Shown here in pieces: positions 3,573 to 58,938 of a stretch of DNA of 63,523 nt; positions within the stretch are counted from its first letter, which is position 1, and every line of letters starts with the position of its first letter. Below the pieces are notes generated by a model. It was not told the DNA's origin and ran no database searches. It saw only the letters and a program-made list of their open reading frames with translations. A program made the position numbers and the translations under genes. The DNA is from Sunxiuqinia dokdonensis (lineage in GTDB: Bacteria > Bacteroidota > Bacteroidia > Bacteroidales > Prolixibacteraceae). The stretch spans positions 1 through 63,523 of the forward strand of contig NZ_LGIA01000146.1 in assembly GCF_001270965.1 (NCBI RefSeq), in the 5' to 3' direction.

Positions 3573-3925
3573 GATACCAAGCTCCGTTTTTGGATACCAA
3601 GCTCCAACTTTTCGATATCAAGCACGATTTTTTCGATACCAAGCTCCAACTTTTCAATACCAAGCTCTAACTTTTCAATACCAAGCTCTAATTTTTGGAT
3701 ACCAAGCACCAATTTTTCAATAACAAGCTCCAATTTTTGGATACCAAGCTCCAATTTTTCGATACCAAGCTCCAACTTTTGGATACCAAGCTCGAATTTC
3801 TCGATACCAAGCTCCAACTTTTTATCACCAAGCCGGAACATGTCAATAACAGGCAACAAATTTCCATCACCAAGCTAAAACCTTTGACTACCAAGCACCC
3901 TCTTTTCAGTTCCAAAAATGATTGA
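3573..3925. repeat. 21-bp tandem repeat array (about 17 units)
   Basis: Contiguous imperfect copies of a 21-bp unit of the form GATACCAAGCTCCAACTTTTC, with the core ACCAAGC most constant and the T-run variable. The period is exactly 21 through the central units and decays at the right end. Because 21 is a multiple of three, both strands stay open in several frames (for example a seven-residue LELGIEK repeat on the minus strand), but no frame has a credible start or function. The array fills the gap between the tRNA-like gene and the PorP/SprF gene. Confidence 0.9.
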
Positions 3926-4165
3926 ACAACAAATCCTGGGATTTCATTTGTCCATAACCAACTTATTTTTCGAATTCCAGCACAAAAAAATCAAGTCATC
4001 CCCATTTTACCCGCCTGCCATCCAGTGCGGATAATTACAATACCCCTTTCGCTATTCGCTTAGATGGGTTTGCTAACTGTTTATTTTTACAGACAGGCAG
4101 TGTTGCTATGTTTGTCGCTGAAATTGAGTGTGTTTTACACACAAACGATAGATGACGGCGATAAC

Positions 4166-5101
4166 ATGATGCGAATTTTCACATTCCTTTACCTGTGCGT
4201 AGCATTTGTTTTTTTTCAGATCAACAAAGCCAGCGCACAGCAAGACCCCATGTATACGCAATACATGAACAACATCCTTTCGGTTAATCCGGCTTATGCC
4301 GGATCGGGCGACGCACTTAGCATGATGGTCATGTCGCGTAACCAATGGGTTTCTATTGAAGGGGCTCCCGCAACACAGTCGTTTATCATCCACACCCCCA
4401 TTACCAAGCACCATATGGGTCTGGGTTTTTCGCTCCTGAAAGACCAGCTTGGACCCATCTCGCAAACCGGCGCCTATGTCGATTATTCGTACAGCATTGA
4501 TTTTGCCCACGGCCGGTATTTATCGTTTGGGTTGAAAGGTGGCGTTAATTTTTTTGAGGCGGGCCTCTCGAAATTGGAGACCGTTGACTCGAATGATCCT
4601 GTCTTTGCCAGCGACATCAACCGGAATTTCCTACCCAATGTGGGCATCGGACTTTACTTCAATTCTGAACGTTTCATGACCGGGCTTTCGATCCCCAAAC
4701 TCATTCAGAACCAAATCAACAGCAACGATTTTTCTTCAGAATATGTGAGCAAGGAAAATATTCATCTGTTTTTTATGGCGGGCTACGTTTTTGATGTCAA
4801 CCGAATTCTTAAATTTAAACCGTACTTTCTAACAAAATACAGCCAGAACTCGCCCCTGGCCGTCGACTTAACCGCCCAATTTCTGTTTTATGAACGATTG
4901 TGGCTGGGCGCGATGTACCGGGTTGGCGATGCCGTGGGTGCCATGTTCCAAATACAAATTTCCAACCAACTGAAAGTCGGCTACGCTTATGACGTAACGG
5001 CCACCGAATTGGGATCATACAATAACGGAACGCACGAAATTTTGGTGAGTTATGATTTTGACTTCGGACGCGACAAGGTGAGGTCGCCACGCTATTTTTA
5101 A
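4166..5101 (+). CDS. PorP/SprF family type IX secretion system membrane protein
   Basis: 311 residues from the ATG at 4166, chosen because the signal peptide (MMRIFTFLYL..., cleavage after SAQQ) starts there; the upstream in-frame extension to 4064 has no signal-like character. The first mature residues (QDPMYTQYMNN, then NPAYAGS) are the hallmark of the PorP/SprF family, which forms an outer-membrane beta-barrel linked to type IX secretion or gliding. The rest alternates hydrophobic strands with Gly/Asn turns and ends in DFDFG-type strands. The OmpA/PD40 gene follows after 17 bases, the usual partner in Bacteroidota. Many genomes carry several such pairs, so this one need not be the core PorP. 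Confidence 0.92.
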   Translation: MMRIFTFLYLCVAFVFFQINKASAQQDPMYTQYMNNILSVNPAYAGSGDALSMMVMSRNQWVSIEGAPATQSFIIHTPITKHHMGLGFSLLKDQLGPISQTGAYVDYSYSIDFAHGRYLSFGLKGGVNFFEAGLSKLETVDSNDPVFASDINRNFLPNVGIGLYFNSERFMTGLSIPKLIQNQINSNDFSSEYVSKENIHLFFMAGYVFDVNRILKFKPYFLTKYSQNSPLAVDLTAQFLFYERLWLGAMYRVGDAVGAMFQIQISNQLKVGYAYDVTATELGSYNNGTHEILVSYDFDFGRDKVRSPRYF

Positions 5102-5118
5102 TTTGAAACGGCTGACTG

Positions 5119-7131
5119 ATGAGACGCGCTACAGGTAAGATCTTCCTCATTTTCATTTTTACTTTTCTGCTACACTCGCTGGCTGATGCTCAAAAAGTCA
5201 CCATTCGCATGGCCGACAAAAGCTTCGACAACTTTGCTTTTATGGAAGCCATCGGCTTGTATGAATTTGCCTACGGCAAAGACTCGGCCAACGCCTATGT
5301 CATCCGCCGGCTAGCCGATGCAAACCGCCACATTGGAAATACTGAGGCCATGGAGAAGTGGCTGGAGCTTCTGATTTCAAAAGGAGACGCGCAGCCCGAT
5401 GACCTGTTCAACTACTCACAAGCGCTAAAAAGCAATGGGAAATATCCCGACGCCGAAAAGTGGCTCAACAGTTACGCCGAGCTTCGTCCCGACGACAGCC
5501 GGGTGAATGCTCAAAGCTCATTGCTTGAATACATCCAGCTTTTACACCACAACCCCGACCGTTACAAAGTTCGTCCGGTGTCGCTGAACACCAATGGCTC
5601 AGAGCTGGGCGTTACCTTTTACCGCAAAAAACTTGTCTTTTCATCAACCAAACTCACAAACGGAACACCCAGCCCAAAATACAAATGGAATGAATTGCCT
5701 TATTTCAGCCTGTTTATTGGCGATCAGGCTCCCAATGGAGACATCATCAACACGAAACAATTTGCACCCAAATTACAGACAAGCTACCACGACGGGCCGG
5801 TAGCTTTCGACCCGAAAAACGACAGGGTGTATATTACCCGAAACAACGTTGGAAAAAATGGTAGCGCTGCCAGAGGAAGCCAGGGCGAAATTAACCTGAA
5901 AATTCTGTTTGGTGGAAAAGAAAAAGACGAGTGGGAATACCGGGGCGAGTTTTCGTACAACAGCGATGACTACTCCACCGGACACCCATCCATCGACACA
6001 ACCGGCCAGGTAATGTACTTTGCTTCCGACATGCCCGGCGGCTACGGAGGAACCGACATTTACTACAGTATTTTCAATCAAGGGTATTGGACCACGCCGG
6101 TTAACCTGGGCCCGAAAATCAATACGTCGGAAAATGAAATGTTCCCGTTCATCAGCTACGACGGAACACTGTATTTTTCGTCAAACGGGCACCCGGGGCT
6201 TGGTGGATTAGACATTTACTCCGCGATTCCTGAAGATGGCCTTTTCAACCAGGTCGAAAACATGGGCTACCCTTTGAACAGTCCTAAAGATGACTTCAGC
6301 TTTGTGCTCGACGAAACCGGAACAGCCGGCTATTTCTCATCAAACCGAAATGGCGGACGCGGAAACGACGATATTTATTTTGTCCGGCTTACGCATGTTC
6401 CGGTGTTTATCCGCGGTGTGGCCAACGATTTTGTCACGGGAAAACCTTTGGCTGGAGCAACCATCAGCCTGGTCAATGAATTTGCCGACACCCTTTCAAC
6501 CCAGATAACCAAACGCACCGGAGAATTTGAGTTTGAAGTTCATAAAGGACAAAACTATTTTATTCATGCCATCAAAGCGTTTTATCTGGGCAACGACACG
6601 CTGGTTCCGACCAAAAAATTGCGGGCCGGCGATGAAACTTTTGTCCAGCTTTTGCTTGAAATGGAAGAAGCGATTGACGATGGATCGCCCGAACCACTGT
6701 ATATGGAAGAGGAAAATGGCGAACCACTTCAGGTACATGAAATTAGAGACGTTGATTTTTACGTGGGTGATTGGGTGGTTAATTCAGAGGTTGCCCATAC
6801 CATCAATGAACTGATTCAGTATTTGATCCAGTTCCCTGACATGGAAATTCGCATTGAAACGCACACCGATTCGCGGGGTGATGACGAAAAAAACCTGCTC
6901 CTGTCAAAACAGCGGGCAAAAGCCATTTTCGATTACATCTGCTGGAAAGGAATTGATCCGCTGCGTGTGGCTTACGAAGGCTACGGAGAAACCCGGCTGC
7001 TCAACAAGTGCGACGATGGTGTGGATTGCCCGGAATCAGAATACCAAGCCAACAACCGCAACATTGTGAAGGTGGTGAAAAAAGGCGAATACAAAGGGAA
7101 ACGAACCATCCGAAATACCTTCTACTTCTAA
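5119..7131 (+). CDS. OmpA-family protein with PD40 propeller (PorE-like)
   Basis: 670 residues. A signal peptide (about 1-25) is followed by TPR-like helices (about 30-140), a WD40-like PD40 beta-propeller (about 200-430, with repeats such as MYFASDMPGGYGGTDIYY and LYFSSNGHPGLGGLDIY), a carboxypeptidase-regulatory-like beta-sandwich (about 435-520) and a C-terminal OmpA peptidoglycan-binding domain (about 550-655, ETHTDSRGDDEKNLLLSKQR and the NNRNIVKVV end). This order is that of PorE-type proteins, which tether type IX secretion components to the cell wall. It probably forms an operon with the PorP/SprF gene. It converges on thiL with four bases between stops. Confidence 0.92.
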   Translation: MRRATGKIFLIFIFTFLLHSLADAQKVTIRMADKSFDNFAFMEAIGLYEFAYGKDSANAYVIRRLADANRHIGNTEAMEKWLELLISKGDAQPDDLFNYSQALKSNGKYPDAEKWLNSYAELRPDDSRVNAQSSLLEYIQLLHHNPDRYKVRPVSLNTNGSELGVTFYRKKLVFSSTKLTNGTPSPKYKWNELPYFSLFIGDQAPNGDIINTKQFAPKLQTSYHDGPVAFDPKNDRVYITRNNVGKNGSAARGSQGEINLKILFGGKEKDEWEYRGEFSYNSDDYSTGHPSIDTTGQVMYFASDMPGGYGGTDIYYSIFNQGYWTTPVNLGPKINTSENEMFPFISYDGTLYFSSNGHPGLGGLDIYSAIPEDGLFNQVENMGYPLNSPKDDFSFVLDETGTAGYFSSNRNGGRGNDDIYFVRLTHVPVFIRGVANDFVTGKPLAGATISLVNEFADTLSTQITKRTGEFEFEVHKGQNYFIHAIKAFYLGNDTLVPTKKLRAGDETFVQLLLEMEEAIDDGSPEPLYMEEENGEPLQVHEIRDVDFYVGDWVVNSEVAHTINELIQYLIQFPDMEIRIETHTDSRGDDEKNLLLSKQRAKAIFDYICWKGIDPLRVAYEGYGETRLLNKCDDGVDCPESEYQANNRNIVKVVKKGEYKGKRTIRNTFYF

Positions 7132-7135
7132 GAAA

Positions 7136-8173
7136 CTACCCCAGCGGGTTCCAGCCCTGTGCCTGAAGCGCGACGGCTGTTCCCGCGCCGGTAATCATAT
7201 TGGTCCCGGTGCTTTCCTCTGTAATATGTCCAATGATGGTGATATCCGGATCCTGCTTAATTTTGTCGTGATCGGCCAGCGGAACAGTAAATAGCAGTTC
7301 GTAATCTTCGCCGCCATTCAGCGCAGCAACAAGCGGATTGATGCTCAGCTCGTCGGCAAACTTACGGGTTTGAAAGTCCATGGGAATTTTTTCTTCATAG
7401 ATACTACAGCCCACCTTCGAAGCTTTACAAATATGCATAATCTCGGACGACAAGCCATCCGAAATATCGATCATGGCTGTCGGTTTGACACCCAGATTTT
7501 TCAACGCGCTGACCACGTCACCCCGAGCTTCCGGTTTAAGTTGCCGCTCCAGAATATAATCGTAGCCTTCCAACTTGGGCTGCTCTTTCGGGTTCACTTT
7601 AAAAACTTCATTCTCGCGTTCCAACAGCTGAAGCCCCATGTAGGCACCGCCCAAATCGCCTGTCACACAAATTAAATCGTTGAGCTGAGCCCCACTGCGA
7701 TAAACCAGGTCTTCCTGATTCGCCTCGCCAATGGCTGTCACACTGATGGTCAGTCCGGTCAACGAACTGGTCGTGTCACCACCAACCAAATCCACTCCAT
7801 ATTTTTCACAGGCCAAATGAATTCCGGAATAGAGTTCATCAATCGCTTCCACCGAAAACTTACTTGAAATAGCCAGCGAAACCGTAATCTGCCGGGGCTG
7901 GGCATTCATGGCAAATACATCCGACAAATTCACCACCACCGCTTTGTATCCCAAATGCTTCAGCGGAACATACATCAGGTTGAAATGAATTCCTTCCGTC
8001 AGCAAGTCGGTTGTCACAACCACCTGTTTCCCTTCAAAACCAAGCACCGCAGCATCATCGCCAACACCTTTTACCGTGCTTTTGTGTTGAATTTGAATAT
8101 TTTTTGTCAGGCGCTCAATGAGGCCAAATTCCCCCAATGTTGCCAGTGTTGTTTGATTTTTTGTATTATCCAT
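7136..8173 (-). CDS. thiL: Thiamine-monophosphate kinase
   Basis: 345 residues, a normal length. ThiL phosphorylates thiamine monophosphate to the active cofactor thiamine diphosphate in the cytoplasm. Visible signatures are GDDAAV (about 39-44), the metal-binding TTDLLTEGIHF (about 53-63), the NLSDVFAMNA motif (about 82-91) and VGGDTTSS (about 129-136), with AMIDISDGLSSE in the C-terminal half. It is divergently oriented to sufB. No TPP riboswitch is seen in the 146-bp gap. Confidence 0.95.
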   Translation of the reverse strand: MDNTKNQTTLATLGEFGLIERLTKNIQIQHKSTVKGVGDDAAVLGFEGKQVVVTTDLLTEGIHFNLMYVPLKHLGYKAVVVNLSDVFAMNAQPRQITVSLAISSKFSVEAIDELYSGIHLACEKYGVDLVGGDTTSSLTGLTISVTAIGEANQEDLVYRSGAQLNDLICVTGDLGGAYMGLQLLERENEVFKVNPKEQPKLEGYDYILERQLKPEARGDVVSALKNLGVKPTAMIDISDGLSSEIMHICKASKVGCSIYEEKIPMDFQTRKFADELSINPLVAALNGGEDYELLFTVPLADHDKIKQDPDITIIGHITEESTGTNMITGAGTAVALQAQGWNPLG

Positions 8174-8219
8174 GTTTTAAATATCAGACCTGCAGGTGTG
8201 GATTAATCGTTTTCAGTCG

Positions 8220-8247
8220 CAAAAATAGCTTTACTTCCTTATCTTTG
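8220..8247. promoter_or_regulatory. Divergent promoter pair between thiL and sufB
   Basis: CAAAAATA at 8220-8227 is the complement of a TAnnTTTG -7 box facing thiL. TATCTTTG at 8240-8247, followed by C, is a perfect -7 box of the Bacteroidota housekeeping sigma factor facing sufB. The two boxes are only 12 bases apart, so the two transcription units share one short control region. Clear -33 elements were not found. Confidence 0.55.
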
Positions 8248-8319
8248 CAATTATTTTTAAACAGTCTATTTTGAAGTTTGTTATTACATGCGGTAAGAGA
8301 AACGATAAAAAAGTGGGAT

Positions 8320-9765
8320 ATGGAAGAACAAGACAAGATATTACAAGAGGTTACTTCACAAGAATATAAATTTGGGTTTGTGTCTGATTTTGAATCGGAC
8401 TCGATTCCCAAGGGACTCAATGAGGATGTGATTCGGACGATTTCGGCCAAAAAGAACGAACCGGAATTTATGCTTCAATTCCGATTGGATGCCTACCGGA
8501 AATGGCTGAAAATGCCCATTCCTGATTGGGCCTATCTGAAGATTCCGCCAATCGATTTCCAGGACATCATTTATTATTCAGCTCCTAAAAAGAAGCCACA
8601 GTATGAAAGTCTGGATGAAGTTGATCCTGATCTAATTGAGACATTCAACAAGCTAGGAATTCCATTGGAAGAGCAGAAAGTGCTGGCCGGAGTTGCGGTT
8701 GATGCGGTGATTGACAGTGTGTCCGTGAAAACAACCTTCAAGGAAACATTGGCTGAGAAAGGCGTTATTTTTTGCTCGTTCAGTGAGGCCGTCAAAGAAC
8801 ATCCTGATTTGGTAAAAAAATATTTGGGCATGTCGGTTCCAACTTCCGACAATTTCTTTGCAGCCCTCAATTCGGCGGTATTTTCCGACGGATCGTTTTG
8901 CTACATTCCCAAGGGTGTCCGTTGTCCGATGGAGCTGTCGACCTACTTCCGGATTAATGCTGCCGGAACCGGACAGTTTGAGCGAACCTTGATTGTTGCT
9001 GAAGACGACAGTTACGTGAGCTACCTGGAAGGATGTACCGCCCCCATGCGCGACGAGAATCAGCTACACGCTGCCGTGGTTGAAATTATTGCCATGGACC
9101 GGGCCGAAGTAAAATATTCAACCGTACAGAACTGGTACCCGGGAAATAAAGAAGGAAAAGGTGGCGTATACAACTTCGTGACCAAACGCGGCATTTGCCG
9201 TGGCGAATCCTCAAAAATAAGCTGGACACAGGTTGAAACCGGATCGGCCATCACCTGGAAATACCCCAGCGTGATTATGATGGGCGACAACTCGGTGGGC
9301 GAGTTTAACTCGGTTGCCGTCACCAACAATCACCAGCAAGCCGACACCGGAACCAAGATGATCCACATCGGTAAAAACACCAAAAGCACCATTGTGTCCA
9401 AAGGGATCTCTGCCGGCTTGAGCGACAACTCCTACCGTGGATTAGTCAAAGTACTGCCCGGAGCGGTTAACTCGCGGAACTTTTCGCAGTGCGACTCGCT
9501 GTTGTTGGGATCAACTTGTGGTGCACACACCTTTCCTTATATCGAAGTGGGAAACAAATCATCGATTGTGGAACATGAAGCAACGACTTCAAAAATTGGT
9601 GAAGACCAGATTTTCTACTGCAATCAACGCGGAATTTCAACCGAAGATGCCATCGGTATGATTGTGAATGGTTATGCCAAGGAAGTACTGAATAAGCTGC
9701 CGATGGAATTTGCCGTTGAGGCGCAAAAATTACTGGCAATTAGCCTGGAAGGAAGTGTTGGATAA
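8320..9765 (+). CDS. sufB: Fe-S cluster assembly scaffold SufB
   Basis: 481 residues from the ATG at 8320 ([11 protein letters not shown]...); the in-frame extension to 8278 falls beside the predicted transcription start and is not family-like. SufB forms the SufBC2D scaffold on which iron-sulfur clusters are built. Recognisable blocks are [19 protein letters not shown], the [20 protein letters not shown] segment, and [20 protein letters not shown] near the C-terminus, which contains the conserved Cys of the family. First gene of sufBCD. Confidence 0.97.
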
Positions 9766-9835
9766 ATTGAACATAAATACGAACGTTTGAGTTGGTTCCG
9801 ATGCGGAAACTCAAAATCCGAAATAATAAACAAAT

Positions 9836-10585
9836 ATGCTGACAATAAAGAATTTAAGAGTTGCCATTGAAGGGAAGGAAATCCTGAAAGGTATCAACCT
9901 TGAAATTAAAGCGGGCGAAGTACATGCCATCATGGGACCCAACGGTTCCGGAAAAAGTACCTTGGGCAATGTTTTGGCCGGTAAAGAAGAATACGAAATA
10001 CTGGACGGTGAAATTTGGTACGAAGGCGAAGATTTGCTCGAGCTTTCGGCAGAAGACCGGGCTCGTAAAGGCTTGTTCCTGGGTTTCCAGTATCCGGTAG
10101 AAATTCCGGGGGTACCCATGGTCAATTTCATCAAAACATCAGTCAACGAACATCGTAAATTCAAAGGTCTGGAGCCACTCACTGCCGGTGAATTTCTGAA
10201 ACTGATGCGCGAGAAAAAGGAGCTGGTTCATCTGGATTCGCAACTGACAAACCGCTCGGTCAACGAAGGTTTCTCCGGTGGTGAAAAAAAGAAGAACGAG
10301 ATATTTCAAATGGCCATGCTCGAACCCAAGCTAGCCATTCTTGATGAAACTGATTCAGGCTTGGATATTGATGCGCTGCGTATCGTTTCGGACGGTGTAA
10401 ATGCCTTAAAACACCCGGAACGTTCAACCATCGTCATCACCCACTACCAGCGCTTGCTGGAGTATATTGTTCCCGACTGTGTTCACGTGTTGTATCAAGG
10501 AAAGATTGTCAAATCAGCCGGAAAAGAACTGGCGCTCGAATTGGAAGAAAAAGGGTACGACTGGCTTAAAACTCATAGTTTATGA
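9836..10585 (+). CDS. sufC: Fe-S assembly ATPase SufC
   Basis: 249 residues, an ABC-type ATPase without membrane partner. Walker A GPNGSGKST (34-42), signature FSGGEKKKNE (about 145-154) and Walker B with LAILDETDSGLD are intact; the FSGGEKKKNE variant is characteristic of SufC. It energises the SufB-SufD scaffold. It lies 70 bases after sufB and its stop overlaps the sufD start by four bases (ATGA). Confidence 0.97.
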   Translation: MLTIKNLRVAIEGKEILKGINLEIKAGEVHAIMGPNGSGKSTLGNVLAGKEEYEILDGEIWYEGEDLLELSAEDRARKGLFLGFQYPVEIPGVPMVNFIKTSVNEHRKFKGLEPLTAGEFLKLMREKKELVHLDSQLTNRSVNEGFSGGEKKKNEIFQMAMLEPKLAILDETDSGLDIDALRIVSDGVNALKHPERSTIVITHYQRLLEYIVPDCVHVLYQGKIVKSAGKELALELEEKGYDWLKTHSL

Positions 10586-11943: not shown

Positions 11944-11964
11944 ATCAATATCGAATAAATTCAG

Positions 11965-11995
11965 AGAGCTTCACTTTTGTGAGGCTCTTTCTATT
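11965..11995 (+). terminator. Rho-independent terminator after sufD
   Basis: AGAGCTTCAC (11965-11974) pairs with GTGAGGCTCT (11979-11988), one G-T wobble, loop TTTT, followed by TTTCTATTT. It would separate sufBCD from sufS unless read through. Confidence 0.8.
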
Positions 11996-12000
11996 TATTG

Positions 12001-12081
12001 CCGTCGGATAAATCCGACGGGCAGCATGTCCGCAGGCCAAGCTGATTGCCTGCATTTAACCCCGTTGGCTCAAGCCAACGG
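12001..12081. repeat. Two short REP-like hairpins between sufD and sufS
   Basis: CCGTCGGAT/ATCCGACGG (12001-12020) and CCGTTGGCT/AGCCAACGG (12062-12081) are perfect 9-bp palindromic stems, each with two central bases, and differ in sequence. Between them GCAGGC/GCCTGC (about 12032-12053) can form a third stem. Architecture resembles the intergenic hairpins at 41748 and 43044. Confidence 0.65.
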
Positions 12082-12182
12082 CATTATTCATTTTAAAAAG
12101 TCCAATCAAAAAGATTAGTTTTGTGTTGAAATTAATGAGCGTCTCACTTGAAATGAAACTCTCATTAAAAAACAGATAGCCC

Positions 12183-13522: not shown

Positions 13523-13539
13523 TTGCAAACAAAATAGAA

Positions 13540-16520: not shown

Positions 16521-16751
16521 GTAATCCAGTAGGTTCCCAACCTATTCAAATAGGTTCCGGATCTATTCACTTAGGTGCAAAACCCATTCTGACAGGTCCT
16601 GGATTGATTCTAATAGGTTCGACACCAATTTCACCCGGTCTTTTACCAATTTTTTTAGGTTCGCGACCTATTCACATAAGTCTGGAGACTATTCCCTTCG
16701 ATCCGGAACCTATTTCATTAGGTCTGCGAGCCAATCGTTGGGGTAACAAAC
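16521..16751. repeat. 21-bp tandem repeat array (11 diverged units)
   Basis: Eleven contiguous units of exactly 21 bp with consensus near CTATTCAnnTAGGTTCCGGAC. Units are diverged (roughly half to two thirds identity) but the frame of 21 never slips. The unit sequence differs from that of the array at 3573. It lies between the cloverleaf element and the terminator before gcvH, in a 792-base gene-free gap. Confidence 0.85.
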
Positions 16752-16790
16752 CTAATCCATCACCTCCACCAATATATCCAATCAAAAAAA

Positions 16791-41747: not shown

Positions 41748-41780
41748 ATTGATCGGATGACTTTGAGTCATCCGATCAAT
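41748..41780. repeat. Perfect 15-bp hairpin, copy 1
   Basis: ATTGATCGGATGACT (41748-41762) and AGTCATCCGATCAAT (41766-41780) are perfect complements around TTG. On the minus strand it lies five bases after the stop of the propeller hydrolase gene (stop 41786-41788). The core is shared with the hairpin at 43044. Confidence 0.9.
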
Positions 41781-42898: not shown

Positions 42899-42938
42899 TT
42901 CCTTCTTTAATGAACGGGCAATTTTTTCATCAGTACCC

Positions 42939-43026
42939 GCTTAAATTTTCATCCTGATGTAAATTTATTTTCTTCCCGATGAAAATATTTTTTCTTCCTG
43001 ATGGAAATTTATCGCCATCAGGATGT
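42939..43026. repeat. 22-bp tandem repeat array (4 units)
   Basis: Four contiguous 22-bp units (starting 42939, 42961, 42983 and 43005), each with an AAATTT-like start and a TTC-TTCCTGATG-like core. In the last unit the core is inverted (CCATCAGGA, 43014-43022) and pairs with TCCTGATGG of the third (42996-43004), forming a hairpin. It sits within the PUL between two enzyme genes. Confidence 0.8.
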
Positions 43027-43043
43027 AAAAATTTCTATGGTGT

Positions 43044-43076
43044 ACTGATCGGATGACTTGAAGTCATCCGATCAGT
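43044..43076. repeat. Perfect 15-16-bp hairpin, copy 2
   Basis: ACTGATCGGATGACTT (43044-43059) and AAGTCATCCGATCAGT (43061-43076) are perfect complements. On the minus strand it lies six bases after the stop of the DUF4450 gene (stop 43083-43085). It shares the TGATCGGATGACT core with the hairpin at 41748. Confidence 0.9.
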
Positions 43077-49865: not shown

Positions 49866-49945
49866 CTGTGTTACTCTGTGGTTAGAATATCGAAATTTAA
49901 CCACGGAGTTTCACAGAGTTGCACACAGAGGTCCGCAGAGGTTGT
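49866..49945. repeat. Inverted repeat with CACAGAG-type direct repeats
   Basis: CTGTG plus CTCTGTGGTTA (49866-49884) pair with TAACCACGGAG plus CACAG (49898-49916), with few mismatches. The right side continues as direct repeats of a CACAGAG-like word (49912, 49924 and 49935) at roughly 11-12-bp steps. It occupies the 247-base gap between the GH2 gene and the six-hairpin lipoprotein gene; no frame is credible there. Confidence 0.65.
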
Positions 49946-49980
49946 TAGAGTTATAATTGCGACTCCCTTCATGGGAGCCT

Positions 49981-52125
49981 CTAAAACACGGGTTTAATGT
50001 CTTCCCATTTCACCTTCCACTTGCCATCTTTGGGGAAGCCGGGGTTTTCCGTTTCGCAACCTTCGTAACCGGCGCACATCATGCCGATGGTGGTCAGCAG
50101 GCCGCCGTTGCCCGGCAAATAAATCCGCAGGCGTTCGCTTTGGTAGTTGTGCCCGTTGCGCAGATAAGTGTTTTTCTGAACATCTTTCAGCAGAAACTCC
50201 AAGGCCAGTTCGGGCTCTCCCAGCCTGACGGCCGACATGGCTGCCATCGGGTAATCCCACCCCCAGGTCGAAGGCCAGTCCCATCGCTCGGCTATGCGAT
50301 GCATGGTGTTGCGCATCACTTCGGGATCCAGTTTGTCCCAGGCTGGCAAAATTCCGTAAGCGCCCAAAACCACCGGATGGTCCTCCATGAGCTCCATGTC
50401 GGTGTAGGATTCGGTTGCACCTTCAATTCCCAAATAAACCCCATCAGCCTGATCGGGAGCTGCCAGTTTAAGCCGGACATCCTCCCATTGGCCATCCGGT
50501 TCCAGTTGCAAACGATCCTGCCACTTCCGGGCGGTGGTCAGTCCCCAGTACCAATAGGGCAGCTCAAATGGCGGGTTGGTCGTGGTTTCGCGCGACCAAT
50601 GCTCCTGCGCCGGAATAAGCGGCGGTGCCAGATCGTACTGTTGCTTTTCCTCGTTCCAAACCGGAAAGTCGCCCATAAAAGCTGCCGTGGCAAAAACCAG
50701 GTCTTTGTATTTGTTCAAGGTTTCTTCCGTTGGATCAGCCTGATACATTTGCTCGGCAAACCAGATGATGTGCGGCTGCTGCCAAACCAGGTAGGAACCA
50801 ACCGACGAAGGACTGTTCTCGCCATCGGGCCCCAGCATTTTCTGCCAACGCACGCCTTGGTACCCTTGATCTTGCGCGGTTTGCCGGGCCTGCTCGTATA
50901 AGTCGTTGTAATAGTCCAGTTGTTTTTCGATGAGGTGTGCCCGGTTCCACTGCGGAAAATGGGCGATGTGCCACCAGTGCATTTCCAGGTGATATTTGCC
51001 GTACCAGCTGTTATAGGTCAGGCCCGTTTCAGCGGGCGGCAAGGAACCGGTACTTTGTATTTTGATCAGATATTGCGACAAGATTGTGCGTCGCTCCAAC
51101 TCCTGAGCCCGGGGATCGGTACATTCAGTGAAATCAACGATACCACCGTTTTCCCAATAGTTTAGCCAGGCCTGTTCGTTGTTTGTTTTGGTTGACTCGA
51201 AATCGGCTAAAGTCATTTCGCCAACTTCCGGAGCAAACAGGCAGTTGAATTCAAGAACTTCTTTACTTCCGGGCTGAAGGACAAACTGATGTTCACCGGC
51301 CTTGGTCACCGAACCGGAACCTTTCCACGCGATGGCGACCTCATATTGATCGTTGTCCAGCGTACGATTGATGAGTACTTGATTCGAAGTGACTTCTTCT
51401 AAAACCGACTGGTGTTTTTCGGGTGAATCAAAGTCGTAGCCTTCGTGGGTATTTTCGGCCACTCCAAACGGGAATTTCCATTGCACCGCCAGTTTTCCTT
51501 CAGCAATCAGGGGCGATTCAATTCTAGCTGAAATCTGGTCCTGATCCTGATGACAATAAACCTCAACGTTTACCGGCTGCCCGTCAAACTCAAACGAACT
51601 GCTGATTTTTCCCGTCCACATGTCCAGGTGATGTGTAGCCTGTTTGATATCTTCCAATCGCGCGGTTTCACCTTCAGAATTGGTCAGCACCAGGCCAATC
51701 ATTCCCAAATGCAGGCGGTGCGGGTTTTCGCGGAAATAGTTGCACGCTGCTTCAGCCCTCGGATCATCTTTCAATTGATGACGGTAGGGCACTTGCCTGC
51801 CTTCCACTTCAAAATATTTGAGCGTTTCGGAGCGGTCGTAGCCTTCGGTATTGGGGTTGGTATGCCAGCCCCAGTTGGATTGGGTTCCCAGCGGTACGCC
51901 ATTTTCATAGTCAGAGTAGAAGGTTTGCAGCCCGGTCAGGTCGGTGGTAAAGGCGAACTCACCATTTCCAACAGACAGCGAAGCCAGTGAGTCGAAGCCT
52001 TCAACCAACACATTGCTGCGCGTCACCACGCTATGCCGGTCAATTTTTTCGGGCTCATTTTTCGATTGGCAACTAGCCAACACCATAACAGAGAGGATTG
52101 ATAAAAGAAGAATTCGTTGCTTCAT
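49981..52125 (-). CDS. Six-hairpin glycosidase-like lipoprotein, unassigned
   Basis: 714 residues from the ATG at 52125, chosen because a lipoprotein signal follows (lipobox VLASC, about 15-19). The N-terminal half is a beta-sandwich domain (about 30-300), and the C-terminal half a helical barrel with LEMHWWHIAHFPQWNR, SYLVWQQPHIIWFAEQMY, PAQEHWSRETTTNPPFELPY and a WGWDYPMAAMSAVRLG stretch. This is the layout of GH65/GH95-like enzymes, in which a Glu such as in PAQEHW could be the general acid. I cannot assign a CAZy family. The start lies two bases after the GH106 stop, so the two are surely co-translated. Confidence 0.8.
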   Translation of the reverse strand: MKQRILLLSILSVMVLASCQSKNEPEKIDRHSVVTRSNVLVEGFDSLASLSVGNGEFAFTTDLTGLQTFYSDYENGVPLGTQSNWGWHTNPNTEGYDRSETLKYFEVEGRQVPYRHQLKDDPRAEAACNYFRENPHRLHLGMIGLVLTNSEGETARLEDIKQATHHLDMWTGKISSSFEFDGQPVNVEVYCHQDQDQISARIESPLIAEGKLAVQWKFPFGVAENTHEGYDFDSPEKHQSVLEEVTSNQVLINRTLDNDQYEVAIAWKGSGSVTKAGEHQFVLQPGSKEVLEFNCLFAPEVGEMTLADFESTKTNNEQAWLNYWENGGIVDFTECTDPRAQELERRTILSQYLIKIQSTGSLPPAETGLTYNSWYGKYHLEMHWWHIAHFPQWNRAHLIEKQLDYYNDLYEQARQTAQDQGYQGVRWQKMLGPDGENSPSSVGSYLVWQQPHIIWFAEQMYQADPTEETLNKYKDLVFATAAFMGDFPVWNEEKQQYDLAPPLIPAQEHWSRETTTNPPFELPYWYWGLTTARKWQDRLQLEPDGQWEDVRLKLAAPDQADGVYLGIEGATESYTDMELMEDHPVVLGAYGILPAWDKLDPEVMRNTMHRIAERWDWPSTWGWDYPMAAMSAVRLGEPELALEFLLKDVQKNTYLRNGHNYQSERLRIYLPGNGGLLTTIGMMCAGYEGCETENPGFPKDGKWKVKWEDIKPVF

Positions 52126-52127
52126 GC

Positions 52128-54992
52128 TTACTGGTTTTTTATTTCTAAAGGTGTCAGACTTACCGGCCCAAGCAATCCTGAGGGAAGCGGTTCCCAATGT
52201 GCGGCCGTAAACACCCCGTCGGGACCCACGTTCTCGCGCTTGTTTGCGGCAAAGTTGATGTTGTAAAATTTCTTGTAATTCACGCCGTTTTTATCCATGT
52301 CGATGATGCGGTTGGCCATCAGGTTCGACACCTTCACTTCCAATTCGTTGGTTTCTTTCAACAAACTTGGATCGATGCTTAACTGATAGCTTGGCCCGAC
52401 CAAGGTTCCGAGTTTTTCACCATTCAGGTAAACCGAAGCGGATTCATGCACTTCTCCCAAATCGAGCAAGTAAGCAGAAGCTTCTGCCTGTGGTTTGTCG
52501 AATGAAATTTGGTAGCTGGCCGTTCCCGAGAACTTCTTCAATTCATCCGATTGTTCGGTCCACGATTTTAGTTCGGTGGTTTGGTAGGAAGCCGGCAAGC
52601 TTGGCCCGCCCTTTTCAAAGGCCACCGTCCATTCGCCACTCAATTCATTTTTTTCTGAAGCAGCAGTCATCATCGGATAATCATCCAATTGTACTTTGTA
52701 CGGATACCATTGCAGAATGAGGGTTTCGCCCGGCGCCAGCTGCAAATAAACCTGTGACTGGTTTTCATCAACTTTCTGAACGCTGGCTTTCCCTTTGGCG
52801 CGGTTCATCGGGTTAAACCAGGCGGCATGTTCTCCCGAAGTCTGCAAAGTCACCCACTGATCAACCGGCTGATCGCTCCAGTTGGTGATAAAATAGCAAG
52901 TGCCTTCCACGCGTTTCACCCGATTGTACCACAAGCCAAGCTGTGCCAGTTCTTCCGGATAAACATCCACCATCTCCAGCATCCCATCCATGTCGTCACT
53001 CATCAGGAAGTTTCCATCGCCTCTACTATAAACGGACAGGTTCATCACCGGATTGAACTCCATGGATTTTACCAGCCCCTCATAAGCCTGCTGACGGTTT
53101 TTCAAATCGCCCATTCCGGGCACATCAACCGGCAGTTGCTCCTGAAACACGATGGTGGCGCCGGCTTCGGCCAACTCCAGTAATTTTTCCATGGTTGCCA
53201 AAGGCATGTGTTCGCATTTGGGTACAACAATGGTTTTATACGTGGCACCCGGCGCTTTAATCAGTTTGTTTTGGGCAGTCAGTTTCTGGATTTGCCTATC
53301 CGAAATATAGTCGAACGAGTATCCTTTAGCAAGAAATAGCTCGCTGAGTTCACGGGTTAGCGGCTCCTGCGGTTTTCCAAAGTGCGCCAACATACTGCGC
53401 CCTTTCTGTGACCAGGTGTCATATATCGGAAAATAAAGTAAAATGTCGTTGTTTGGGATCGACTTCTGCATGAACGACTGGCAATTGGTGACGTAATCGT
53501 TCAGCGCTTTCATGTCGGGCCACCACGAGTTGGTCGGTGCAAAATGCACGGCGGCATAAAACAACCAGCCCGGCCATTCTTCTCCCTGAGGCGAATAGGG
53601 TGTTCCGTGATACACGATGTGGTTGACGCCATGCGCCAGGTAGCGGTCGAAGTTTTGCTTGGCATCGCCCAGGTTGGCCAGAAAATGCTCGTCGAGCCAG
53701 GTGGAAGCCTCGCAGGCAATCAATTCCTTTCCGGAAACATGCCCGGCCGAGGTCGCCATTTTGATGCGCATGGGGTTGAGCCCTTCCGTTTCGGGAATGT
53801 GGCTGGCTTCGTATAAATCGAGGATATTGGCAGGCGAACCATGTGCCTGGTTGCGAATGACCGCGTTGTGCGACTCGGCCCAACCGGCCCAGACTCTGGT
53901 GAATTCGTCCAGCAGCAAATCCGAAATTGTTTCGCGGTAATCGCAAAGCACCCGGCTGTTTTTTTCTTCGGAATCGTTACCAAACAAGGCTGGCAAATAG
54001 TTTTTCAAATCGTAACCCCGGCGGGCTTCAAATTCTTCGAAAAAGCGGGGTGTCCAGTTCGATTCGCCACTGGCATCGTCCACTTCGTAGGAGTCGTTAA
54101 AAAAGGCGCGCAAGCCGGATAAATCGCGGCCCTCAGCTTTGTCGTCGTAATCTTTCAGGAATTTGCGTGTCGCTTCCTCCGAAAAATGATCAATCACATT
54201 GCCTTCGCCACCTTGTCCGGCACGCTCCACCATTTTGCCATGCCAACCTTGAAAAACAGCGTATAAATTCCAGTTTCCTTCTGGTGCTTGCCACTCGAGT
54301 TGACCATTGCCGTCAACCAGGGAAGTGAGCTCAAGCACTTCGCCGGCATCGCTGTAGGCCATCAGTGTTTGCAAGGGAAGCGGCTTTTCAAACCGAATCT
54401 GGTCCAGGGCCAATTCATTTAAATTGGTATTGCTGCTAATCGGGAATTTCACTTCCGAGATCTCAACGCGGCGACCCACAGCACGAATCAACGGCTCCTG
54501 TATGTAAGTCACTTTTTCATTCAGCCGTTGCCCGGTTTTCAGGCTGTATTGCTTGAACTGCACGTTCCGGCAAGCATCCTCAGCTGAAATCCACGGCCCG
54601 CCAAACGGCCAGCCTGATGCGTTAGCCAAGTCGATGCCCAAATCCAGGCGTTTGCCCTCATTCAGCGTATGTTCCAGTGCATCCATCCATTCGTCAGACT
54701 GAAAAAGCAGGGCCTGGTCTTCATAGCCTTTCACCCCGTAGATGGGTGTAATTTCCAAGCCGCCAAAGCCGGCTTCTTCCAGTTCTTCCATGTTGGCGGT
54801 CAAATCGGTAGGATTCACCGCGCTATCGTGCCACCACCAACGGGTCCAGGGCTTGGTTTCGTTGGTAATTTCAGGCCATTCTACCTCCGCGCCACTTTTA
54901 TCGGTACTGCAGCCGACCAGCGCAATCAGCAAACAGATGGCGAAGCCATTCAGTAAAAAAGAAGCTTTTGTTTGTCCTATTCGTGTTGCCAT
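52128..54992 (-). CDS. GH106 alpha-L-rhamnosidase (lipoprotein)
   Basis: 954 residues with lipobox LVGC (25-28). GH106 signature at the start of the barrel: PWTRWWWHDSAVNPTDLTAN, EEAGFGGLEITPIYGV, and DLANASGWPFGGPW; NDSYEVDD, SHNAVIRNQAHGSP and ACEASTWLDEH follow in order. A C-terminal jelly-roll (about 800-950) with a YLLDLGEVHESASVYLNG galactose-binding-like pattern closes it. It should remove rhamnose from rhamnogalacturonan I oligosaccharides after uronic acid removal. Confidence 0.93.
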   Translation of the reverse strand: MATRIGQTKASFLLNGFAICLLIALVGCSTDKSGAEVEWPEITNETKPWTRWWWHDSAVNPTDLTANMEELEEAGFGGLEITPIYGVKGYEDQALLFQSDEWMDALEHTLNEGKRLDLGIDLANASGWPFGGPWISAEDACRNVQFKQYSLKTGQRLNEKVTYIQEPLIRAVGRRVEISEVKFPISSNTNLNELALDQIRFEKPLPLQTLMAYSDAGEVLELTSLVDGNGQLEWQAPEGNWNLYAVFQGWHGKMVERAGQGGEGNVIDHFSEEATRKFLKDYDDKAEGRDLSGLRAFFNDSYEVDDASGESNWTPRFFEEFEARRGYDLKNYLPALFGNDSEEKNSRVLCDYRETISDLLLDEFTRVWAGWAESHNAVIRNQAHGSPANILDLYEASHIPETEGLNPMRIKMATSAGHVSGKELIACEASTWLDEHFLANLGDAKQNFDRYLAHGVNHIVYHGTPYSPQGEEWPGWLFYAAVHFAPTNSWWPDMKALNDYVTNCQSFMQKSIPNNDILLYFPIYDTWSQKGRSMLAHFGKPQEPLTRELSELFLAKGYSFDYISDRQIQKLTAQNKLIKAPGATYKTIVVPKCEHMPLATMEKLLELAEAGATIVFQEQLPVDVPGMGDLKNRQQAYEGLVKSMEFNPVMNLSVYSRGDGNFLMSDDMDGMLEMVDVYPEELAQLGLWYNRVKRVEGTCYFITNWSDQPVDQWVTLQTSGEHAAWFNPMNRAKGKASVQKVDENQSQVYLQLAPGETLILQWYPYKVQLDDYPMMTAASEKNELSGEWTVAFEKGGPSLPASYQTTELKSWTEQSDELKKFSGTASYQISFDKPQAEASAYLLDLGEVHESASVYLNGEKLGTLVGPSYQLSIDPSLLKETNELEVKVSNLMANRIIDMDKNGVNYKKFYNINFAANKRENVGPDGVFTAAHWEPLPSGLLGPVSLTPLEIKNQ

Positions 54993-55031
54993 AAATGTTT
55001 ATTTTTTCATTTCCTGTAAGATACCCACAAT

Positions 55032-56252
55032 TTATTGAACCGCCCGCTTCAGCTCAACCGCATAAATATCCGACTGACCTTCAAAGTTGGCTCGAAAGAT
55101 GATCCACTTCATGTCAGGAGAAAAATGCACATTCGGCTCGAGCTGATAGTCGTGATGTTTCATATTCACCAGCCGTTGCGACCGAAAACGATCGCCTTCT
55201 GGATAAAACAGATAAATCCACATGCCATCGCTGGCTTTGGCTACCTGTCCCGGATCGCCACCATCGCCGGCAAACAGTGTTTGATCGGGCGAAAGTGTGA
55301 AGTGGATTGACCATTCGTCGCGGGTGAGCGAATAGCGTTTTTCTTCGCCTGTTTTCACATCCACTCCGGCCAAAAAGAAAGCTTCTCCGCGCGGTAACTG
55401 CAGGTCGAACCAAATGCGTTTTCCATCGGGACTAAAAAACTCGTGTCCGGCAATTTCCATGTCCATGGTTCGCTTGTGCATCAGTTTTGGCTCGCCACCA
55501 TGGATATTGATGGTCCAAATGCGATCGACTTTGTGCCAGGGGCCTTCGTGACAAAACATGAGCAATTCCGGTTCAGTTGGTGAAAACTGGATGTGGTTGA
55601 GCCAGGCATTTTCAGAATAAATATTTTTGAATTCTCCACTTGCCACCTCAATGGTAAACAGTGAACGCCTCAGTCGTGCTTCGTAAATCACATTGAAATA
55701 GTCGCTTTTTTTGGGGTTTTGCCGAAAAAGCTCCTGTTCTTTGGGAGAGCTCACCGCGCCTGCCAGCAAAGTTTCATCGGCATTGAGGGTAGTAATATTG
55801 GCCCGAATGCTATCAGGAAAAACATAAATCAGCCGGGTTTTGCGGTCGTCCACCCCGGTTGAAAACACGCTGTCGCCACACTGGTAAAAAACACGGCGAC
55901 TCATCTTACCGACAATCTCGCCCGACACTCCTTTTTTATTGGTGAGTTGTTCTGTTTCGCGGGTTTTCAAATCGACTGAAAATAGTTGCCGTTCACCGTC
56001 CACCATGCCGTAAAAAATCATCTTGTCGTTTTCGGTGCTGGTGCCCGGAAGAAATGGATTATTGTGAAAATAAAAGCTGCGGTTGTCACCTTCACGATCA
56101 GTGAGGTGAACAAGCTTATGACCGGTATCCCTATCAATCCAGGCCGCTGGCATTGGTTGCTGCGCTCCGGTTTCCAAAACCGGCAAATCTTGTGCCTGAC
56201 TAGAAATGGACAGGATCAGCAGGGCAGTGAAGTAGAGCAAGATTTTTTTCAT
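55032..56252 (-). CDS. PL22 oligogalacturonate lyase
   Basis: 406 residues with a signal peptide (about 1-20). A seven-bladed propeller is indicated by repeats such as LVHLTDREGDNRSFYFHNNP, NHIQFSPTEPELLMFCHEGP with HKVDRIW, GHEFFSPDGKRIWFD and NVHFSPDMKWIIFR. These histidine-rich blade ends match the manganese site of oligogalacturonate lyases. PL22 degrades short homogalacturonan fragments to unsaturated monomers, probably in the periplasm, after PL1 action. Confidence 0.9.
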   Translation of the reverse strand: MKKILLYFTALLILSISSQAQDLPVLETGAQQPMPAAWIDRDTGHKLVHLTDREGDNRSFYFHNNPFLPGTSTENDKMIFYGMVDGERQLFSVDLKTRETEQLTNKKGVSGEIVGKMSRRVFYQCGDSVFSTGVDDRKTRLIYVFPDSIRANITTLNADETLLAGAVSSPKEQELFRQNPKKSDYFNVIYEARLRRSLFTIEVASGEFKNIYSENAWLNHIQFSPTEPELLMFCHEGPWHKVDRIWTINIHGGEPKLMHKRTMDMEIAGHEFFSPDGKRIWFDLQLPRGEAFFLAGVDVKTGEEKRYSLTRDEWSIHFTLSPDQTLFAGDGGDPGQVAKASDGMWIYLFYPEGDRFRSQRLVNMKHHDYQLEPNVHFSPDMKWIIFRANFEGQSDIYAVELKRAVQ

Positions 56253-56366
56253 GGTATTTTGATTAGTGAAAGCTGGCCCGGTTCCGGCTCAGTTTTCGGT
56301 TAATGTTCCTTTGCTTTTTTCAGCACAACTTTTCTTCTTTCCTATACTACGTTGTTACGACTATTT

Positions 56367-58481
56367 TCAATTTACCCATCCTTCGCCGGCTTCCAAATCA
56401 CTCATTTTATACTTAACGGAAGTAATTCTGACTGATTCATCATACAGCTGATTAAAATCCGGCAGCACCAAGTTACTGCCTTTTTTTAAAAACACGGGGG
56501 TCTGATGAACAGGTGCTTCAACCTCAACATAAGTGCCGCCCTCCAATTCCTCGTTCGTCCAAAGGTTAATCCAGGTTTCACCGGCTGGCAAATACAGCCG
56601 ATGCGAGCTTTTGCCATCTTCCCAGACCACCGAAACCAGCAAGTCGTCTCCATACAGGTAAGTTGCCCAATCGTTCCAACTCTCGGGCTGATCGGGATAC
56701 TCCAAAAACAGCGGACGGGCAACCGGCATTCCGGTGTCATGAGCCACTTGTGCAAAATGGTAGGTGTAATCCACCAGGCTCATCCGGAGTTTCGAATAAA
56801 AGCGCCAAATAGCCAGCAGTTCCTGATCAAATGAAGGCTCATAATTCATTCCCCAAAACCCCAGGTTGTTGGTGGGCCCCACCTCCATGATGGGTGAAAA
56901 GCAGGCAAATCCCATCCAGCGCATGGTGGCCTCGCGCTCCATTCTTTTGGGGTAACCGCCGGTGTCTGATCCCCAAATGGGATAGCCCATCACCGCACAA
57001 CGCTGCATACCGATGAGGGCCGAGCGCAGCCCTTCAGCGGGGTTGCCGGTATCGCCCGCCCAAAGTGCACCGTATTTGGCACTACCGGTGTACTGCGCCC
57101 GGGGAAACAAAATAAAGTCGTCGCCCAAAACAGGTTGAATGGCTTCATAAGCCGCTTTTACATATTGCCGCGGATAATCGTTAAAATTTTCGCGATAAGT
57201 CGTTCCGATCGACGTTTTCAGATGAAGTGAGTCCCGTAGCTTTTCGCCATCAGCGCGATCCAGCTTGTAGCCTTTCACGCCCATTTTGGCGAGCTTGGCC
57301 GGCCCGTTTTCAGCCCACCATTGACAGGCTTCTTCGTTGGTGAAGTCCATGAGAACCTGGCGCGAATTTTTCCATTCGCTGCTCACCAAATCATATTCAC
57401 GTTCTTCCGCCACATCGGCCATGTCGCCCATCACAAAAGGTCCAATCCAAAGCATCACTTCCACCTTTTTCGCATTAAGCCAGCCAATCATTTCTTCGAA
57501 TTTGGGTAGCCGCTCTTCGTCGACCAGGTAATCGTCGAAGCCACGTACGCCAGGCCCCCACGGGCGGTCGATCCAGTAAGCGGTGACCGGAATATCATAG
57601 GCTTCCATCATCAAAATATCTTCTACCAAATCGGAATTATAAGGTGCATGGACTGGCGATCCATCAAAATGTGTTGTCCTGTTGACATGCTCATCGCGCC
57701 AGCGCCACGGGCCAAAAGCCCATTTGGGAGGCACAAATGAAGGTCCGGTTTCGAGGGCATGGCGTTTGACCAGCTCGGCCGGATTTTCGTCCATCATCAA
57801 TGAAAAGGAAAACTCGGGCCCTTCGAACGAAATTTGAACCAAATCCGGATTTTCCTTGCAGAAATCGATCACGCCCGGCCAGGTGCCATGCACGAACAAG
57901 GCATAGTTTTCAGAAGAAATATAAAAAGGTGCATAGGCCGAAACGGTAGGTTTTAGCTTCACTTCAACTTTTTCGCCCCGAAGGTTTAAGCCGGTGGTCA
58001 TTCCTTCTTCCCACGATTTGGTTTGAGGCCCATCAACTACCCGCTCGAAAATACCGGTAAAATATTCGTTGGGGGCAGCAGTTGTTTTTAAAAACCAGGA
58101 AGCGGGCTCTTCTTCCGAGTTTTCCAGCCTAAAGGTCAATTCAAGTTCCTTGTCCTTTTCAACCAGCTCGAGCACCACAATTTCACCGCCGCTATTCCAC
58201 CGATAGCTTGAAGCTCCTTGTTGTTTACTTACTTCAGGTTCTCCTTTCACCCAACGAATCTCGCCACTATGCTGGTAACCAATGGCACCGGTTTCTTCAC
58301 CGGGAGAAATGGTTAATCCTTCGCCATAAGGATTGAAAATTTGAAGGGCTGCAAATGAATCGTCGCCGGAGTTCAACACGGAAACTGATTGTGGAGAATT
58401 ACAGGCTTGAATAGTTGTAAAAAATAATAAGGCCAGCAAAAACCTCAACTGTCCCGCATCTATCATTCGTTTAGGGTTCAT
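56367..58481 (-). CDS. GH31 alpha-glycosidase
   Basis: 704 residues, N-terminal signal (about 10-28, probable lipobox TIQAC). An N-terminal sandwich (about 40-240) precedes the GH31 barrel (PPKWAFGPWRWRDEHVNRT, AYWIDRPWGPG, nucleophile in GYKLDRADGE, acid in ALWAGDTGNP, and GYPIWGSDTGGY). The KLDRADGE variant differs from the WxDMNE of starch alpha-glucosidases, so specificity may be for another alpha-linked sugar, such as galactose, of pectin side chains. The start of this gene faces the 498-base gap holding a tandem array; otherwise that gap shows no gene. Confidence 0.9.
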   Translation of the reverse strand: MNPKRMIDAGQLRFLLALLFFTTIQACNSPQSVSVLNSGDDSFAALQIFNPYGEGLTISPGEETGAIGYQHSGEIRWVKGEPEVSKQQGASSYRWNSGGEIVVLELVEKDKELELTFRLENSEEEPASWFLKTTAAPNEYFTGIFERVVDGPQTKSWEEGMTTGLNLRGEKVEVKLKPTVSAYAPFYISSENYALFVHGTWPGVIDFCKENPDLVQISFEGPEFSFSLMMDENPAELVKRHALETGPSFVPPKWAFGPWRWRDEHVNRTTHFDGSPVHAPYNSDLVEDILMMEAYDIPVTAYWIDRPWGPGVRGFDDYLVDEERLPKFEEMIGWLNAKKVEVMLWIGPFVMGDMADVAEEREYDLVSSEWKNSRQVLMDFTNEEACQWWAENGPAKLAKMGVKGYKLDRADGEKLRDSLHLKTSIGTTYRENFNDYPRQYVKAAYEAIQPVLGDDFILFPRAQYTGSAKYGALWAGDTGNPAEGLRSALIGMQRCAVMGYPIWGSDTGGYPKRMEREATMRWMGFACFSPIMEVGPTNNLGFWGMNYEPSFDQELLAIWRFYSKLRMSLVDYTYHFAQVAHDTGMPVARPLFLEYPDQPESWNDWATYLYGDDLLVSVVWEDGKSSHRLYLPAGETWINLWTNEELEGGTYVEVEAPVHQTPVFLKKGSNLVLPDFNQLYDESVRITSVKYKMSDLEAGEGWVN

Positions 58482-58781
58482 CGTTCTACTTCAGTTTATA
58501 TTGGTCATTCTAAAAATTGTCTATTCAATGGTTCGATTAAGTTCCGCTCACAAATTTGGTGAGGAAAGCTTATTTTCTCCTGTAATTCTGTACACAACTA
58601 CCGGGACAAACTGGTTTTATCGGACCACTTGCAGCGCCAATCAAACGCTTTTGAAAGAAATCTGCCAAACGGATCATAAGGGCCAACAAGTGAGGGCAAA
58701 TCCGGCTTTGGCCTGTAAAAACATCCATTCGCTTACAAAAGGAGCAAAGACAGTTTCGAAAAAATGGCTAAACCTGCACCC

Positions 58782-58938
58782 AACCCGACGGAAATGCAAA
58801 AAACGGTGCGGAAATGCGATTCGACCAGGTTAAATGGCATTTCCGTCTGGTTTTTTGCATTTCCGCCCGGTCATGAGGCATTTCCGCCTGGTTTTTTGCG
58901 CTTCCGTCCGGTCGTGAAGCTTTTCCGTCTGGTTTACC
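58782..58938. repeat. 20-21-bp tandem repeat array with inverted units
   Basis: Five units with the core TTCCG-YC-GGT (cores at 58841, 58861, 58882, 58902 and 58923; steps 20, 21, 20, 21) are preceded by two units in the opposite orientation (CGGAAATG at 58789 and 58809, step 20). The two halves can pair to form a cruciform. The array lies in the 498-base gap between the TPR gene and the GH31 gene; 58482-58780 shows no credible gene or clear promoter. Confidence 0.85.

Follow-up and report, generated by a model that had tools for sequence, protein, structure and literature searches.

Why should tandem arrays of dissimilar sequence share a repeat period? The question is raised by a 63,523-bp contig (C146, NZ_LGIA01000146.1) of the draft genome of Sunxiuqinia dokdonensis (4,962,831 bp in 225 contigs), which was analysed in its entirety and is referred to as the window, and in which an initial annotation had pointed to four arrays with units of 20-22 bp. 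The shared spacing was there attributed to selection or to a generating mechanism, and the arrays were suggested to represent a genome-wide class. All four arrays exist, as seen from Tandem Repeats Finder (TRF), a fixed-lag scan and self-identities at fixed lags, and the unit prints show abutting units without spacers, as claimed. Of the readings offered at the time, the best fit is a generating mechanism that works with a length step. We favor the hypothesis that the arrays belong to a genome-wide, satellite-like class, for which we infer duplication and dispersal with a step of two helical turns and which would be mostly tolerated by the cell; our probability for this reading is slightly below one half (about 0.48).

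The evidence for such a class comes from 61 stretches of the source genome, the window included, which together cover 949,155 bp or about 19% of the genome and form a non-random sample, since many contigs were chosen from a loose list of matches to array 1 that was near chance level outside the window, and others by number. The fixed-lag scan recorded self-matches at every lag from 9 to 100, with score cut-offs of 15, 25 and 40. Class periods were defined as 20-23, 40-44, 63, 82 or 84 bp, and heptamer-like arrays were tallied separately. TRF, which tolerates indels, served as a second detector (window listing at score 40), and genes were called with a codon-score caller of our own, which gave 82.6% coding DNA; only calls scoring above 20 entered the density and context counts.

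At a score of at least 15, the fixed-lag scan identified 54 arrays in non-coding DNA, 27 of which belonged to the class and were not heptamer-like, while 15 were heptamer-like and 12 were of other types. The corresponding numbers were 24 (with periods of 20-22, 40-42 or 63 bp), 11 and a single array of an 8-bp type among the 36 arrays scoring at least 25, and 18, 4 and 0 among the 22 scoring at least 40. The four window arrays are included in the 24, and the other 20 are located outside the window. The filtered counts of 24 and 18 are used because earlier counts, of 27 class arrays at a score of at least 25 (3 of them heptamer-like) and 19 at a score of at least 40 (1 heptamer-like), had no heptamer filter. 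Two class arrays fell in predicted genes (728,930 bp) at score 15, a number that dropped to zero at score 25, and a first-order Markov resample of the sample yielded two arrays of any period, none of them in the class. With TRF, the class accounted for 28 of the 52 arrays in non-coding DNA versus 10 of the 37 in coding DNA, and 23 of the 31 non-heptamer periods between 16 and 50 bp fell within 20-23 or 40-44 bp (p = 2e-8 against a uniform null). As foreseen in the initial annotation, the class is mostly intergenic in this non-random sample, its periods peak at 20-22 bp and few of its arrays are genic; the doubled period (40-42 bp) also forms a peak, and higher-order periods of 42, 63, 82 and 84 bp were seen as well.

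Heptamer arrays of the GATGCTT, GATACTT and GGTTATC types are scattered in the source genome as a second class defined by its period (Table 1). The idea that the class itself has a heptamer origin was dropped, the mean excess of self-identity at lag 7 or lag 14 being absent in class arrays. Two of the 29 non-coding arrays with class periods were removed as heptamer-like, which left 27 source-genome arrays for the folding, consensus-pair, dyad, covariation, row-wise folding, gene-placement, curvature and indel tests described below.

Table 1. Tandem arrays of the window (window coordinates) and heptamer arrays in the source genome (coordinates within the named locus).
Feature	Position	Strand	Description
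Array 1	3565..3915	none	About 16 units of 21 bp, consensus AATTTTTCGATACCAAGCTCC; final four or five units strongly diverged
Array 2	16521..16770	none	About 12 diverged 21-bp units; palindromic unit (CCTATTcaAATAGG, AGGTTcccAACCT)
Array 3	42945..43035	none	Four to five units, each of 22 bp; with an orthologue in G. sediminis
Array 4	58782..58938	none	20+21-bp units, best taken as a 41-bp dimer; TRF 58836-58935
Heptamer array	L010 5673-9716		Fixed-lag scan
Heptamer array	L010 14667-18236		Fixed-lag scan
Heptamer array	L019 134-206		Fixed-lag scan
Heptamer array	L025 7630-8062		Fixed-lag scan
Heptamer array	L082 90-1125		Fixed-lag scan
Heptamer array	L100 4818-5042		Fixed-lag scan

Array 1 is a strong array, called by TRF at 3565-3823 (period 21, 12.3 copies, 82% matches, 1% indels), and its diverged units continue to about 3915 in the unit print and the fixed-lag scan; over 3565-3925, self-identity rises from 0.70 at lag 21 to 0.75 at lag 42. 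Array 2, though long, is strongly diverged, with self-identities of 0.53 and 0.57 at the same two lags, and is weak by TRF, because only 16530-16576 was reported at score 40. TRF placed array 3 at 42945-43012 (period 22, 3.1 copies) and the fixed-lag scan at 42924-43035. Array 4 matches itself in inverted orientation over 58783-58871 (79%), and its first units are therefore oriented opposite to the rest. Such a switch of unit orientation is also seen, by eye, in a relative of array 4 in the genome G001 (L249 1410-1665).

Most of the array sequences are unrelated. The four window arrays are mutually dissimilar, and among 946 pairs of 44 array consensuses 2.1% exceeded the 99% level of a permuted null. 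The description of the arrays as locus-specific, sharing a period and no sequence, nevertheless needs to be qualified, as relatives of arrays 1 and 4 occur at other loci and a number of arrays are members of dispersed families. A sibling of array 4 on contig C161 (L250) is 76% identical over 154 bp, with further relatives in G001, while array 1 has a relative in the congener G003 (L236 290-547) and the L026 array has one in G001. Contigs C208, C112 and C201 carry members of a 41-bp family. Contig C142 gives a short and weak match to this family and has an array of 41-bp units, 347 bp long, that by eye is similar to the L106 array. In the three same-genome pairs compared (L019/L110, L110/L246 and window array 4/L250), homology is confined to the arrays and extends at most about 15 bp past their edges; conserved flanks (leader and tail) like those of miniature inverted-repeat transposable elements (MITEs) were considered and rejected, none being shared in these pairs. 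The occurrence of array sequences at other loci without common flanks indicates that the units can spread.

Comparisons with related species show that arrays vary in presence among congeners. In G003, G004 and G005, the DNA downstream of the array-4 gene's orthologue showed no array, and in G001, G004, G005 and G006 none was found in the 1.5-kb stretch upstream of the gene orthologous to PorP; at the compared array loci, the neighbouring genes also differ in the more distant congeners. A gap that is arrayless in the source genome holds a 41-bp array in Gaoshiqia sediminis, and the gap with the array at L019 13731 measures 571 bp in the source genome versus 103 bp in G003. Array 3, next to which lies a protein whose 92% identity to a G. 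sediminis A06 protein marks the source genome as related to Gaoshiqia, has an orthologue of equal length and register in G. sediminis, with a nearly identical right flank and several differences in the left flank. The first unit is identical in both species, and three units share an altered core, which reads CATCRGGAWG here and CDTCTAGRWG in G. sediminis. Because one pair was compared, this may at most suggest homogenization of the units.

A near-perfect palindrome, TGATCGGATGACTT-NN-AGTCATCCGATCA, is located next to array 3 at 43046-43074 and again at 41750-41778, in both cases beside glycoside-hydrolase genes, and a very similar copy adjoins the array-3 orthologue of G. sediminis. It occurs at 13 places in the genome with at most three mismatches, against 0 for a reversed control, and may be regarded as a candidate operator or an element resembling repetitive extragenic palindromic (REP) sequences.

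Class arrays are enriched in palindromic consensus units. In a dyad test against column-permuted arrays, 12 of the 39 class arrays reached p < 0.05 (Stouffer 9.0), compared to 1 of 16 arrays with other periods, which were hand-picked controls from which 3 of 19 with fewer than two full units were left unscored, and 2 of 12 heptamer arrays; among arrays from other Bacteroidales, 5 of 9 passed. In the window, array 2 alone passes (p = 0.005), array 3 having p = 0.29.

We hypothesize that a duplication process produces tandem copies of any local sequence in steps that measure about two turns of the helix (20-22 bp) or twice that length (40-42 bp), and that it would act more readily where the seed is palindromic. 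The arrays would then grow, shrink and become partly homogenized in whole-unit steps, which would give the higher-order periods of 42, 63 and 84 bp, and their units would spread to other loci without flanks. The arrays would mostly be tolerated and not required by the cell, so that they survive in intergenic DNA, often past the 3' ends of genes, and vary in presence between related species. The best analogy is the satellite DNA of eukaryotes, which forms tandem arrays with higher-order periods, is homogenized, occurs in dispersed families and turns over between species. The arrays described here resemble satellites in their tandem organization, higher-order periods, dispersed families and species turnover, but are bacterial, cover about 100 to 400 bp each and have a period near 21 bp.

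Several observations speak against this hypothesis. The analysis identified neither an enzyme nor a process that would copy DNA in two-turn steps, and the period peak could reflect the survival of arrays instead of their generation. The sampled contigs are non-random, and arrays related by family do not represent independent events. As many as 27 of the 39 class arrays are individually non-palindromic by the dyad test, and arrays of 41-42 bp often have little substructure at 20-21 bp in the fixed-lag scan, so that a simple 21-bp unit is not evident everywhere. The congener G005 had no class arrays in the 87 kb scanned, and the bias of the arrays toward convergent gene pairs in the source genome, to which we return below, could mean that they have a function. 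A stronger version of the hypothesis, possible but unlikely in our view, is that Gaoshiqia and its relatives possess a dedicated satellite machinery, which would duplicate DNA in quanta of two turns (about 21 bp), spread units without flanks and thereby define a class by length, the step taking the form of 22-23 and 41 bp in other Bacteroidales.

We also considered the possibility that the arrays serve as a protein scaffold, with a DNA-binding protein (nucleoid-associated, gyrase-like or a repressor) that occupies one site per two turns on one face of the helix, such that selection keeps the spacing and the dyads while the sequences drift. This would account for the period near two turns and its double, for the dyads in 12 of 39 arrays and for the three unit cores of array 3 that change together between species. 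It would also suit the placement of the arrays, for 10 of the 24 placed arrays in the source genome are located between convergent genes, versus 20 of the 181 gaps of at least 200 bp (p = 2e-5; 3 of the 27 arrays, at contig or stretch ends, were left out, and two arrays occupy one gap). In gaps between co-oriented genes, the array is nearer to the 3' end of the upstream gene in 11 of 13 cases (p = 0.02). However, no convergent excess was seen in the relatives, with 1 of 9 arrays versus 15 of 133 gaps; when the source genome and the relatives are pooled, p is 2e-4, and we regard the bias as suggestive. The array sequences are, moreover, mostly unrelated, and their presence varies among congeners.

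The initial annotation had also emphasized that the arrays diverge without losing phase. Indels are indeed few, with 35 indel bases versus 1280 substitutions in the 27 arrays, a count of bases and not events, compared to 103 indel events versus 1097 substitutions in nine intergenic comparisons, some of which overlap in stretch. But when arrays were simulated at the intergenic rate and passed through the same detector, the ratio was 0.044 (standard deviation 0.012), and the observed ratio was 0.027. Ascertainment therefore explains most of the phase-keeping, selection on spacing is not established, and we have dropped that claim. For phased bending, curvature relative to column-permuted arrays, calculated from wedge values, gave a class mean z of 0.44 and a Stouffer score of 2.8 (39 arrays), the latter against 0.6 in 16 arrays with other periods, and z exceeded 2 in 5 of the 39 arrays, array 4 included. 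The excess is weak, driven by a few arrays and not general. We find a protein scaffold doubtful. Since length is kept and letters are not, presence differs between species, some array sequences recur elsewhere without their flanks and palindromes are in excess, we prefer to a selected scaffold a largely neutral process that would duplicate DNA with a two-turn step and spread the copies.

A simpler explanation is that the arrays are ordinary minisatellites created by slippage without any length step, and that the 20-22-bp peak arose by chance from the sample and a few dispersed families. In its favor, the sample is non-random, some arrays have a common ancestry and represent fewer independent events than there are arrays, and other periods prevail in the wider family. 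With coding DNA not filtered out and a score of at least 25, the class made up 27 of 37 arrays in the source genome, and 3 of these 27 were heptamer-like. By the same count its share was 5 of 7 in four congeners (487 kb), three of which had class arrays, while four genomes from other genera of the family (240 kb) gave 1 of 9. No arrays at all were found in 152 kb from four genomes that represent other families of the order, nor in 80 kb from outside the taxonomic class, and the share was 1 of 6 in other orders of that class (320 kb). Thirty named Bacteroidales loci, chosen as neighbours of a single protein, held 22 arrays at score 15, of which 10 had class periods, mostly of 22, 23 or 44 bp, and 5 arrays at score 25, of which 2 did; arrays of 22-23 bp are present in Prevotella and Bacteroides loci. 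Among the genomes sampled, the class is densest in the source genome. What makes slippage alone improbable is that most consensuses have no detectable kinship, that the peak appears in non-coding DNA with TRF as well as with the fixed-lag scan, and that the congeners show it too.

Arrays of RNA hairpins at the 3' ends of transcripts, which would protect or terminate messages, should also be considered. The arrays lie near 3' ends, and 12 of 27 fold better than their column-permuted versions (z of -2 or lower on at least one strand), the window arrays among them being array 2 (z -5.0 and -3.1) and array 3 (z -3.2 and -4.2). However, no clear covariation signal was obtained in the 23 of 39 class arrays with enough units, where the Stouffer score for the pairing rule was 4.9 versus 3.2 to 4.1 for wrong rules. 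The row-wise folding gain was small, with a mean z of -0.34 and no clear class signal in the 35 of 39 arrays with enough units, although L199 of G. sediminis showed strong row-wise folding as a single array. Nor did the window have any Rfam match at the gathering level. A hairpin function for the class is, in our judgment, quite improbable.

The last alternative, that the arrays are remnants of repeat proteins with seven-codon heptads (21 bp), draws on the likeness of the array-1 units to those of a 149-codon open frame in G003 and is hardly credible and unlikely for the class as a whole, as 12 of the 27 arrays studied have periods indivisible by three (20, 22, 40, 41 or 44 bp), 9 of the other 15 have no frame open throughout, and neither array 1 nor its G003 relative has a third-position excess in codon-position variability; a coding origin of the class was therefore rejected. 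The G003 units, at L236 101-1253, encode heptads such as EKFELGD and adjoin a 214-codon open frame. The statement that all four window arrays are intergenic holds for three of them by our gene calls; array 1 is overlapped by a low-scoring frame on the minus strand (3563-3841, score 17), which codon-position variability does not support.

By their Pfam families, the genes nearby include PorP/SprF at array 1, TsaE at array 2, GH43-like and DUF4450 proteins at array 3, and GH31 and TPR proteins at array 4. No replication initiator was found among the families of the ten proteins beside the four window arrays, and plasmid iterons were rejected for these loci. Near array 1, at 3388-3493, there is a sequence resembling tRNA-Gly(CCC) that was not called by ARAGORN and whose D-arm contains an insert of about 33 bp (about 3408-3440) capable of forming a hairpin. 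Contig C153 (L240) carries a normal tRNA-Gly(ccc), the 3' half of which closely matches the window copy; the latter may thus be a scar left by integration or a duplicate in decay.

The closest precedent is found in the 41-, 23- and 22-nt tandem direct repeats of Porphyromonas gingivalis W83 (464/PgRS and BrickBuilt), which are partly located within MITEs (PMC4596501). These repeats resemble our arrays in that they occur in the Bacteroidales, are intergenic and consist of imperfect tandem units of mutually non-homologous sequence; they also have predicted stem-loops and copy numbers that vary with the strain. Of these periods, 41 and 22 bp are found in the source genome and 23 bp only in other Bacteroidales loci. 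As described there, however, the 23- and 41-nt arrays lie inside MITE-like elements (BrickBuilt with leader and tail), whereas here homology ends at or near the array edges in the three same-genome pairs, and a few families have many copies, whereas here there are many mostly unrelated sequences (PMC4596501). REP sequences and bacterial interspersed mosaic elements are, like the arrays, intergenic and often placed downstream of genes or between convergent genes, and they have palindromic units of 20-40 bp, to which the 12 of 39 class arrays with p < 0.05 in the dyad test may be compared; but REPs are defined as conserved sequence families with GTAG or CGTC ends (PMC3733652), while the arrays are defined by their period. 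Clustered regularly interspaced short palindromic repeats (CRISPR) likewise have repeated units, which are palindromic in some of our arrays; a CRISPR array was rejected because the units abut and unique spacers are absent.

Bacterial minisatellites are usually described by a single locus or sequence family, and no description of a repeat class defined by its period was recognized among the matches listed in the open-licence literature. If nearly all strong non-heptamer arrays in the non-coding DNA of a genome share a period while their sequences are mostly unrelated, then duplication or survival would be quantized by the helix or by the footprint of an enzyme. Such quantization would also link the repeats of 41, 23 and 22 nt that are scattered in P. 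gingivalis with the 22-23-bp arrays of the Prevotella and Bacteroides loci.

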